Assembly (NCBI GenBank): GCA_017934275.1
Contig: JAGBJT010000023.1
Location: 1-61,919 of the forward strand
Direction of reading: 5' to 3'
From: Cardiobacteriaceae bacterium
Lineage (GTDB): Bacteria > Pseudomonadota > Gammaproteobacteria > Cardiobacteriales > Cardiobacteriaceae
DNA length: 61,919 nt
The stretch's first letter is position 1, and each line of letters starts with the position of its first letter. The position numbers and the translations under genes were made by a program. Positions 1 through 61,631 of the stretch are shown piece after piece. The notes beneath the pieces were generated by a model. The model ran no database searches. It saw nothing but the letters and a program-made list of their open reading frames with translations, and was not told the origin of the DNA.

Positions 1-49
1 AATCTCTTTCGTGCTTTAATTTATAGGTGTTCGCCATAATTTTTACCAT
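1..49 (-). CDS. Possible 5' end of a gene leaving the window on the left
   Basis: Reading the minus strand from 49 gives ATG GTA AAA ATT ATG followed by an uninterrupted frame to the window edge (MVKIMANTYKLKHERD). A second in-frame ATG lies at 37. No strong ribosome binding site is visible ahead of either start and only 16 residues can be read, so the family cannot be named. It may equally be non-coding. Nothing else is recognisable between 50 and 131. Confidence 0.22.
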   Translation of the reverse strand, partial: MVKIMANTYKLKHERD

Positions 50-30299: not shown

Positions 30300-30353
30300 C
30301 AGTTTTCAGAGTACTCTGAAAACTGTTCTCTGTACTTGACAGAGAACAGTTTT
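30300..30353 (+). promoter_or_regulatory. Two-hairpin leader with competing stems, copy 1
   Basis: A 26-base dyad (CAGTTTTCAGAG mirrored by CTCTGAAAACTG, 30300-30325) shares its right arm with a second hairpin (AAACTGTTCTCTGT with ACAGAGAACAGTTT, 30320-30352) whose loop region contains CTTGACAG and which is followed by TTGTTT. The two stems exclude each other, as in attenuators. It lies between relA and the small membrane protein gene starting at 30382. It may simply be the relA terminator, but the same plan recurs at 60495. Confidence 0.6.
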
Positions 30354-30381
30354 GTTTAATCAATACTTTGGTGAGGATGTT

Positions 30382-30768
30382 ATGCAAGAAGATGCTGATA
30401 AAAATGAGAAGCAGGAGAAACGGAAGTCTATTTTGTTTAGTCTTATTGGCGTTCTTATAGTGATTCTGTGGGAATATTTCAAATGGGATGAAGCTCCTAG
30501 TTGTACAGATAGCAGTGTTAGATCTACTTTCAACCAGCTATTAGAACAAAACAATATAGAAAATTATAAAGTTGAAAAGGTAGAAACAGTATCTGATGAA
30601 CAGAAAAGTCCAAAATATTGTAGAGCCTATGTACGACACAAAAATACAATTGTAGAAGTTGGATTTTCCGTATCATTTAAAGATAGAGGATTTAGAACTG
30701 TCGAATATGGAGTTTATAGTGATGAACTTTATAAACTGCGCGCATCCGAATTTAACATTTTTCGCTGA
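30382..30768 (+). CDS. Small single-span membrane protein, unknown function (128 aa)
   Basis: A charged N-terminus (MQEDADKNEKQEKRK), one membrane span (SILFSLIGVLIVILWEYF, about 16-33) and an exported-looking globular tail with two Cys (PSCTDSS, PKYCRAYV). The ATG at 30382 is supported by GTGAGGA 6 bases upstream. I recognise no family. It sits alone behind the two-hairpin leader. Confidence 0.55.
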   Translation: MQEDADKNEKQEKRKSILFSLIGVLIVILWEYFKWDEAPSCTDSSVRSTFNQLLEQNNIENYKVEKVETVSDEQKSPKYCRAYVRHKNTIVEVGFSVSFKDRGFRTVEYGVYSDELYKLRASEFNIFR

Positions 30769-30814
30769 TTGTCAAATTTTTTCAACAATTTTTTATTTAA
30801 CTTAATTGCAGAAA

Positions 30815-30848
30815 ATAAAACCCCCACCTTTCGATGGGGTTTTTTTAT
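30815..30848. terminator. Terminator between converging genes
   Basis: AAAACCCCCA pairs with TGGGGTTTT across CCTTTCGA and is followed by a T run; on the minus strand the tail is TTATTTTCTG. It serves the small gene ending at 30768 and probably the SLC13 gene ending at 30885. Confidence 0.75.
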
Positions 30849-30884
30849 ATTTTAACGAAATAGCTAACAATAACTTGTAATTTA

Positions 30885-60155: not shown

Positions 60156-60229
60156 CTCGTTCCAATTCAAAATTAAGATAAGGTAGTAAGCTTAAAGATT
60201 GTATAGTCATTCCTTATCAAAATAGCTGT
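60156..60229 (-). mobile_element. Decayed MITE relic
   Basis: CTCGTTCCAATTCAAAATTAAGATAAGGTAGTAAGCTTAAAGATTG keeps the order of the MITE left half (GTTTCAGTTCAAAATAAGACAAGGCAGCGAGC...AAGA) with many substitutions, and TATAGTCATTCC follows. An old, degraded copy directly beside copy 5. Confidence 0.55.
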
Positions 60230-60231
60230 TT

Positions 60232-60338
60232 TATAGTCGTTCCACTTCAAAATAATACTGCGTTAGCTGCGCCTTGCCGTATTAGACATACTGTCTTCGG
60301 CTCGCTGCCTTGTCTTATTTTGAACTGAAACGACTATA
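60232..60338 (-). mobile_element. MITE copy 5 (~107 bp, inverted)
   Basis: TATAGTCGTTCCACTTCAAA ... ACTGAAACGACTATA, same orientation as copy 3, with a few substitutions in the core (GCTGCGCCTTGCCGTATTAGACATACTGTC). It lies between mtnN and the accessory genes at the right end of the window. Confidence 0.85.
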
Positions 60339-60494
60339 TCGACAAAGTCGGGAAATAAGCAGAAGCAGTGAGAATTTTGCGTTGGCTTGTCATAGCGGGT
60401 ATTTGCAAGAAATTAAAACTTGCTGATGATTTTAAGCTAAATACTTGCTATTGAATTTGTATATATAAAGTCTGGCTATGTAATACAAAAAACG

Positions 60495-60551
60495 GTTTAG
60501 TCTAGACTAAACCCCGTTATCTTGACAGATAACGGGGTTTAGTTTTTTTTT
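60495..60551 (+). promoter_or_regulatory. Two-hairpin leader with competing stems, copy 2
   Basis: A perfect 20-base dyad (GGTTTAGTCT mirrored by AGACTAAACC, 60495-60514) shares its right arm with a hairpin AAACCCCGTTATC / GATAACGGGGTTT whose loop is TTGACA, followed by AGTTTTTTTTTT. Same plan as at 30300 but unrelated stem sequence. It lies 24 bases before the start codon at 60575. It could end transcripts from the left or control the microprotein gene. Confidence 0.65.
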
Positions 60552-60574: not shown

Positions 60575-60790
60575 ATGGCTATAAATGTTTTTGTTACTAG
60601 TAATAGACACGAAGCTGATTACAAAGTGTTTTTTACGACAAATAAATTTGAGGCAAAAGCTGCTCAAATTATCAAAGGTGGAAAATTGACTAGCAACAGG
60701 CATGTGGCAGATGCAAAAGTTTTTATTACTAATAACAAACATGAAGCGGATATTGTGATGCTGCAGGCTGATTTTCCAAAAGCTAAATAA
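60575..60790 (+). CDS. Tandem-repeat microprotein (DUF6150-like, 71 aa)
   Basis: Four imperfect 12-13-residue repeats: VFVTSNRHEADYK (5-17), VFFTTNKFEAKAA (18-30), KLTSNRHVADAK (37-48) and VFITNNKHEADIV (49-61). The pattern recalls the DUF6150 family of short beta-repeat proteins with N-x-x-x-A units. No signal peptide. GTGAGGT lies 6 bases before the ATG. Behind the two-hairpin leader and 12 bases ahead of the strong ribosome binding site of the next gene. Confidence 0.65.
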   Translation: MAINVFVTSNRHEADYKVFFTTNKFEAKAAQIIKGGKLTSNRHVADAKVFITNNKHEADIVMLQADFPKAK

Positions 60791-60802: not shown

Positions 60803-61631
60803 ATGCAAAAAAAAAATACCGATCGTCCTGCTGAAGACTGGAAAAGATTTAGATGGCATAGAAAATCCGTCAGTTCAAGAAATTTTAAGCAATGTTTGCG
60901 GGTCTTGGAAGATTAGTCAAGATCGTATAAAGGAAATTAAATATGCCGCTGCAGTTATAGATAATCGTATTGTTGCGGTATTTGAAGTTTCTAAATGGGT
61001 GCAGTGCGGAGATAGATATCGTTTTATCGGAAAACAAGCTAGTCCGAATATAGCTGATATGTTAGATGGAAAAGATGTATCTAAATATTACAACGGTAGT
61101 CAAAATCCAGTTAAATATTTGGGAATATCTGTTGTAAGCCTAGAACTAGTAGTAAGAGATACACCATCCACATATGAGATTGGGGTAAGTAAATTTGCTA
61201 CTGTTGAAGACAGAGAAAAATATGTTAAAGACATTAAAGACGGCGGCAGTGAATTGTTTTGGGAAGCTAATATGCTTTCTATGACAGTAATTCCATTAGA
61301 GGATACTACTGTAGAACTTACTACTTCCTACCGTATAAAAGATTTGAACGAAGATAGTGAAAGTGGTCGTGAAAGTATTGAAAAAGATATAAAAATTAAC
61401 ATTATTCACACAAGAATGCCGTTTAATGACGCAGAATCCCCTGTTAAGCTAATTGCAGCACATGGATGGAAAAGAAGATTTTATAGTTTTGATTTACCCT
61501 CCCATATTGATGTTGTAAATCTTGAACACAATTCTTTTTATGCCTTCAGTTTTCCTTGTTTGGATGGTTTTATGGATGCAGTGGACTATGGCGAAGATGA
61601 AGATGACACTAATCACACTTACATGATATAG
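60803..61631 (+). pseudogene. Hypothetical gene with a frameshift at a 10-A tract
   Basis: AGGAGGTGATGT gives an almost perfect ribosome binding site for the ATG at 60803. The next codons run through ten A; in the present state the frame ends after about 37 codons. With nine A the frame would continue from 60816 without a stop to 61631, giving about 275 residues: MQKKIPIVLLKTGKD, WKISQDRIKEIKYAAAVIDNRIVAVFEVSKW, DRYRFIGKQA, KYLGISVV and an acidic end. The VVAVFEV ... RYRFIGK pattern resembles an uncharacterised domain seen beside nucleases and defence genes. An internal GTG at 60999 has no ribosome binding site. The stop codon TAG is supplied by the end of the neighbouring insertion sequence. 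Confidence 0.65.
60807..60816 (+). repeat. Homopolymer of 10 A immediately after a start codon
   Basis: Ten A begin at the fifth base of the coding sequence at 60803. One A fewer restores a 275-codon frame, so slippage in replication or transcription would switch the gene. Confidence 0.9.

Follow-up and report, generated by a model that had tools for sequence, protein, structure and literature searches.

Two sites in a 61,919-nucleotide contig of a rumen Cardiobacteriaceae bacterium, here called the window, each contain a palindrome that runs into a terminator-like hairpin in front of a small gene, which raises the question of whether the 2 sites represent one element and, if so, what such an element does. 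A sequence-only reading of the window had proposed a family of cis-acting attenuators or of mobile terminator elements. The analyses presented here indicate that the 2 sites are members of a genuine family of twin hairpins, each about 55 bases long, that has apparently not been described before.

Structure of the Two Window Sites

The first site starts with a perfect 26-bp TA-centred palindrome (HP1; 30300..30325, plus strand) with the core GAGTACTC, which we refer to as type B, and continues into a perfect 15-bp hairpin (HP2; 30319..30353, plus strand) that carries the 8-mer CTTGACAG at 30335-30342. The 3' arm of HP1 overlaps HP2 by 7 nt, and HP2 is followed by a weak, T-rich tail, GTTTAATC. 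A probable ribosome-binding site judged from the sequence, GGTGAGG (30370..30376, plus strand), is located between HP2 and the start codon of a gene at 30382..30768 on the plus strand, which encodes a protein of 128 amino acids with one probable membrane segment and no Pfam match.

The second site contains a perfect 20-bp TA-centred palindrome (HP1; 60494..60513, plus strand) with the core GTCTAGAC, referred to as type A, and a 17-19-bp hairpin (HP2; 60506..60543, or about 60504-60545 at its widest, plus strand) that carries CTTGACAG at 60521-60528, overlaps HP1 by 8-10 nt and is followed by a strong, terminator-like T-tract. The segment immediately upstream (60460..60493, plus strand) holds the conserved start of the type A leader together with a probable extended -10 element, TGTATATAT (about 60459-60467), that may act as its promoter. 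This leader start, GTCTGGC.ATG.AATACAAAAA.CG, was conserved among the type A copies of 2 species. A scan for consensus promoters found none at either window site. The downstream gene (60575..60790, plus strand) encodes a DUF6150 protein of 71 amino acids (PF19647, E 1.6e-7), and the same leader was found with a DUF6150-like gene at a locus of a congener, here called G001 (L092).

The TA-centred dyads overlapping a terminator-like hairpin, as described in the sequence-only reading, were confirmed as the 26-bp and 20-bp palindromes, and the repeated arms CAGTTTT and GGTTTAG were present at the window sites. Its placement of CTTGACAG in both second loops held only in part, as the 8-mer occurs in HP2 at both sites but extends from the loop into the stem: at site 1, only ACTTG is unpaired and ACAG sits in the 3' stem, and at site 2 the unpaired loop is TGAC.

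A scan that ignored sequence and was blind to the loop, covering TA-centred palindromes abutting a hairpin, identified exactly these 2 sites on the plus strand of the window, none on the minus strand and none in 20 Markov-shuffled windows. The fold z-scores of the 2 sites were -4.7 and -7.4, and CTTGACAG occurred 4 times in the window versus 0.7 times expected. A looser structural scan of 693 kb of fetched DNA gave 19 distinct matches, of which 18 contained the same core and CTTGACA, a figure that serves as a consistency check and not as an independent count since much of this DNA had been chosen for holding the motif. The remaining match, also within the window, was a terminator with an A/T run.

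Covarying Stems around an Invariant Core

The copies follow a common plan in which an HP1 palindrome of about 20 bp with the core AGnnTAnnCT precedes an HP2 hairpin with CTTGACA, which in turn precedes a start codon on the same strand. In an alignment of 16 distinct copies, the AG, TA, and CT of the HP1 core as well as CTTGACA were invariant (16 of 16 rows), and almost nothing else was. Pairing was observed in 97.9% of the HP1 cells and 97.4% of the HP2 cells, with 46 and 68 double-change cells compared to shuffled means of 13.8 and 18.7, respectively, and it fell to 27% to 51% when the partner was slid by one to three columns as a control. The covariation that had been claimed from 2 sites is thereby borne out over 16 distinct copies. 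The HP1 arm was 8 to 10 bp long in most copies, and 13 and 15 bp in 2 of them. The type A copies were near-identical and had about 100-125 bp of upstream sequence in common, whereas the type B copies shared little outside the element and had unrelated flanks, with the exception of one pair.

Distribution in Two Phyla

The 1.4-Mb draft genome from which the window is derived contained 16 copies, as identified by BLAST, pattern searches and a covariance model, so the family, for which further copies in the genome had been named as the test, stands. These include 8 copies of type A, 7 of type B (one of which is located at a contig end and repeats another copy) and one degenerate copy, C30. The model, R1, matched site 1 at 30301-30356 (63.1 bits) and site 2 at 60492-60542 (64.8 bits). 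The congener G001 contained 5 copies, one of which had a mutated core and loop, and one additional copy interrupted by a repeat. In a scan of 84,980 genomes with a strict pattern, the 4 matches in Cardiobacteriaceae were all located in the metagenome-assembled genome (MAG) RGIG4814 from roe deer reticulum and matched copies in G001 in sequence, which indicates that G001 corresponds to RGIG4814.

The same scan also returned a Streptococcaceae MAG (L074), which contains a second hairpin around CTTGACAG even though HP2 was not required by the search pattern. The covariance model identified a second copy in this genome (L129) and one copy in each of 3 more Streptococcaceae (L135, L136, and L137), giving 5 copies in 4 genomes, with clear copies in 4 of 335 Streptococcaceae genomes. 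L135 and L136 both precede the same AraC-type gene. None of 397 genomes of other Pseudomonadota contained a clear element, and elsewhere in the family, order, and class the model gave matches that were weak (17-27 bits) and resembled ordinary terminators. It was also noted that ordinary terminators in these wider groups can carry TTGACA or CTTGACA in the loop (L097, L098, L100, and L102). A strict pattern gave nothing in viral contigs, and the viral matches to 2 looser patterns lacked a second hairpin and were judged to be chance. A plasmid search with a Streptococcaceae copy gave no match. A candidate in a Bacillota MAG (L073), with a palindrome and CTTGACA in the absence of HP2, resembled an ordinary promoter and was dropped.

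Position Relative to Genes and Joint Decay

In Cardiobacteriaceae, the script found a start codon for 16 copies, and in each of them it was located 37-52 nt past CTTGACA on the same strand; in Streptococcaceae, the distance was about 36-57 nt. The downstream genes are unrelated to each other and mostly encode membrane proteins or lipoproteins. Their products include 2 TbpB-like lipoproteins, a Sel1 lipoprotein, a glycine-zipper lipoprotein, DUF805 and DUF6150 proteins, an AraC regulator, small membrane proteins and several small proteins with no Pfam match.

The type A copies are associated with a divergent AAA-ATPase_like and PDDEXK_9 gene, usually starting 105-107 nt upstream, which indicates that type A has partly spread as a duplicated unit. 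This gene is present in multiple copies divergent from type A leaders (L078, L079, L080, L082, L087, and L091), which probably explains why many of the leader copies are located at contig ends.

The element and the gene mostly decay together. The copy G001:C30, with core AATCTAGACT and loop CTCGACAG, precedes a frameshifted gene, and its counterpart in the window genome, C31:33296, which follows the same chaperone gene, is intact. In the C19 copy, the gene is gone and HP1 is partly lost and contains a mismatch, while in G001:C15 a repeat interrupts HP2. A counter-example is C30 in the window genome, in which a degenerate element precedes an intact-looking gene. In C31:6282, the element is intact though a repeat has replaced the gene.

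Termination and Competing Hairpins

The number of T residues in the 10 nt after HP2 was 6.1 in Cardiobacteriaceae, compared to 3.8 in the next 10 nt and a background of 34%, which suggests termination in this family. However, the corresponding number was only 2-4 in Streptococcaceae, which contained no T-tract, and the tract was weak also in several of the rumen copies. A terminator scan accepted site 2 but not site 1. The reading of HP2 as a terminator is compatible with the T-rich tail in Cardiobacteriaceae but does not suit the Streptococcaceae copies.

The arms overlapped by 2-6 nt in most of the copies outside the window sites, and by 7 nt in L129, while in C19, which is decayed, they were 1 nt apart. 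The alternative folds differed by up to about 6 kcal/mol, and usually by less than 3 kcal/mol. With such a small overlap in most copies and such close fold energies, a clean two-state switch is not evident. The proposal of a family of cis-acting attenuators is supported as far as the family, the maintained pairing and the position in front of genes are concerned, but strong competition between the first and third arms finds no support as a general rule.

A Leader Element as the Preferred Explanation

We propose a cis-acting leader element that resides in the 5' untranslated region of genes that are accessory and mostly of the envelope type, and whose expression it would control via a trans-acting factor. 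A role in the leader is likely, and the explanation as a whole has in our estimate an even chance of being correct. It is supported by the fixed orientation and spacing, the covarying stems, the invariant core and CTTGACA, the joint decay with the gene and the restriction to particular clades. Against it stand the absent or weak T-tracts, the small overlap, the scarcity of G-U pairs and the palindromic centre of HP1 described below, the counter-example C30 and the failure to find a trans-acting factor or signal, or a consensus promoter at either window site.

According to this proposal, the order in the leader would be promoter, HP1, HP2, ribosome-binding site and start codon, and the putative factor would recognise the folded element by its invariant core and CTTGACA and thereby control gene expression. 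In the rumen Cardiobacteriaceae, its most likely target would be the premature termination of transcription at HP2, and HP1 would serve as a partly overlapping rival structure. Because there is no U-tract after HP2 in the Streptococcaceae, the output there would have to be at a different stage, for instance pausing, the stability of the mRNA or translation.

The proposed leader would mean that a single compact motif exerts common control over surface genes that are unrelated and horizontally variable, both in uncultured rumen bacteria and in distant Streptococcaceae, and if one factor indeed reads the motif, this would represent a new mechanism for a shared regulon. More tentatively, and in our opinion with a rather low probability, the copies may constitute an undescribed leader class that occurs in more than one phylum. 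A putative factor would read the symmetric DNA palindrome jointly with the CTTGACA hairpin, giving common control of laterally acquired envelope genes. Recognition would in that case possibly be of hairpinned DNA in the transcription bubble.

Recognition as RNA or DNA and Other Explanations

In the stems of the element, only 4 of 289 paired cells were G-U pairs. Ordinary terminator-like hairpins from this genome had 59 of 593, a comparison in which the element copies are related and the terminator calls approximate. The near-absence of G-U pairs hints at a constraint on the DNA, which is suggestive but not proof, and makes recognition as RNA or DNA directly testable by mutation. Furthermore, HP1 is palindromic through the central TA, where an RNA hairpin could not pair, in 4 core types (GAGTACTC, GTCTAGAC, GTGTACAC, and GTATATAC) and is close to 20 bp in most copies, which points to DNA. 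The element could accordingly work at the DNA level. HP1 would then be a two-fold symmetric binding site, a cruciform or a hairpin in the non-template strand, HP2 would be another DNA hairpin, and a protein that binds there, immediately past the promoter, would block or modify RNA polymerase. The Streptococcaceae copies without a T-tract are also consistent with this explanation. However, a sequence-specific operator would be expected to keep its arms, which here vary freely with both sides in step, and strict Watson-Crick pairing could also result from template-switch correction of inverted repeats. We consider an element acting as DNA to be possible, though on the unlikely side.

It is improbable that the element is a DNA-processing site, in which an HUH endonuclease or recombinase would nick CTTG/ACA in the hairpin and the genes would be cargo. 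In having an invariant 7-mer on hairpins whose stems vary, the element resembles rolling-circle origins of the pC194 kind, and type A is located in a duplicated unit with the AAA-ATPase_like and PDDEXK_9 gene. However, the orientation and the spacing of 36-57 nt to the starts of unrelated genes are fixed, no second site that bounds the genes was seen at the inspected copies, the decay of the element tracks that of the gene in some copies and the type B flanks are not conserved.

Even less probable is that the copies simply serve the upstream genes as ordinary intrinsic terminators and have the loop sequence in common by accident. While HP2 with its T-rich tail is terminator-like and TTGACA occurs in terminator loops of other members of the family and order, termination requires neither HP1 nor an invariant core, a terminator of its own is already present upstream of several copies (such as L088, L081, and L082), the Streptococcaceae copies have no T-tract and the spacing is fixed to the downstream gene. 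The HP1-HP2 plan was not seen between convergent genes among the copies inspected. A recent, functionless repeat family spread by duplication is highly improbable, as the near-identical type A copies with their common upstream sequence and divergent ATPase gene would fit such a family but the type B and Streptococcaceae copies share only the core, CTTGACA and the plan, with unrelated stems and flanks, and the extensive paired change requires selection or continual correction.

Comparison with Known Systems

In Rfam 15, only a tRNA exceeded the gathering cut-off in the whole window, and when both sites were scanned permissively, all matches stayed below threshold, such as rnk_pseudo (30.2 versus 55 bits) and DUF3800-I (23.4 versus 44.2 bits). 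The suggestion that no described RNA class has this pattern agrees with the lack of any Rfam family reaching its cut-off, and literature searches for such an element gave nothing relevant.

The RAT leaders of BglG and LicT are similar in that a short hairpin in the leader extends into the 5' arm of the terminator that precedes the regulated gene, but they have a conserved sequence with an asymmetric stem and precede sugar-use or PTS genes. They were rejected as a match, since the arms of HP1 vary and form a perfect palindrome, a terminator is missing from some copies and the genes encode lipoproteins, small membrane proteins, DUF805, DUF6150, and AraC proteins. ANTAR-responsive leaders of the EutV and NasR type also contain tandem small hairpins, the second of which overlaps a terminator. 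Their targets require 2 hexaloops with A1 and G4, which is not compatible with the HP1 loops AGUACU, UCUAGA, UGUACA, and UAUAUA and the HP2 loop UUGACA, as read from the alignment. Loops resembling anticodons did not fit either.

The RfaH/ops system likewise has a hairpin in the leader of envelope genes gained by lateral transfer, and this hairpin may be read as DNA. The ops element is a conserved 12-mer located before long operons and recognised by a NusG paralogue, whereas the copies here precede single genes and have 2 hairpins, and no ops-like word was noticed in the aligned leaders. Double-strand origins of the pC194 type present CTTG/ATA in the loop and are similar in showing CTTG-A on a hairpin, but the position here is fixed to start codons, and neither a Rep gene nor a replicon was seen beside the inspected copies. 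The ends of integron attC sites (RYYYAAC ... GTTRRRY, in cassette arrays) were not matched, as the stem ends vary and the copies are solitary.

Uptake-sequence hairpins in Neisseriaceae and Pasteurellaceae and Correia elements are, like the copies here, repeated intergenic hairpins with a constant short word, but our copies are few and located at gene starts. Transposable elements and MITEs were rejected because the copies keep one orientation and a constant distance from the start codon, unlike free insertion. The suggestion of mobile terminator elements is not supported on the same grounds, and also because the similarity among type B copies hardly reaches past the element itself.

Three other roles were also rejected. 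For TTGACA as the -35 box of the downstream gene, there was no conserved -10 box at 16-18 nt in the flanks. A promoter on the opposite strand ([CT]TGTCA-16..18-TAnnCT) would have a spacing of 19-23 in some copies and point away from the gene, and was judged coincidental. A conserved leader peptide was present in some type A copies, but the window copy reads ATG TAA.

Repeats and Accessory Genes near the Copies

Correia-like repeats (TATAGTCGTTTCAGTTCAAAATAAGACAAGGCAGCGAGCCGAAGACAGTATG...) are recurrent in the genus, as in the window at 60190-60345, in L022 at 1100-1250 and in L126 near 630. They are separate elements in this genome that adjoin or fall inside several of the leader copies, and interrupt some of them. 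Another repeat (GCGCATCCGAATTTAACATTTTTCGCTGATTGTCAAA...) is located at about 30740-30857 in the window, at the 3' end of the site 1 gene, which falls within this MITE-like element; it has several matches in G001, and in C19 a similar repeat stands where the gene after the leader would be.

A second gene at site 2 (60804-60900, MQKK...) is homologous to MQKKPSIVMFKTGKDL... in L091 and L092 but is out of frame after an A-run, which may be due to slippage, an assembly error or a broken gene. The relA locus that holds site 1 contains other accessory genes in G001, where the element is absent. Following relA in G001:C34 (L175), we noted the apparent end of a polymorphic-toxin-type protein with a possible immunity gene adjoining it.
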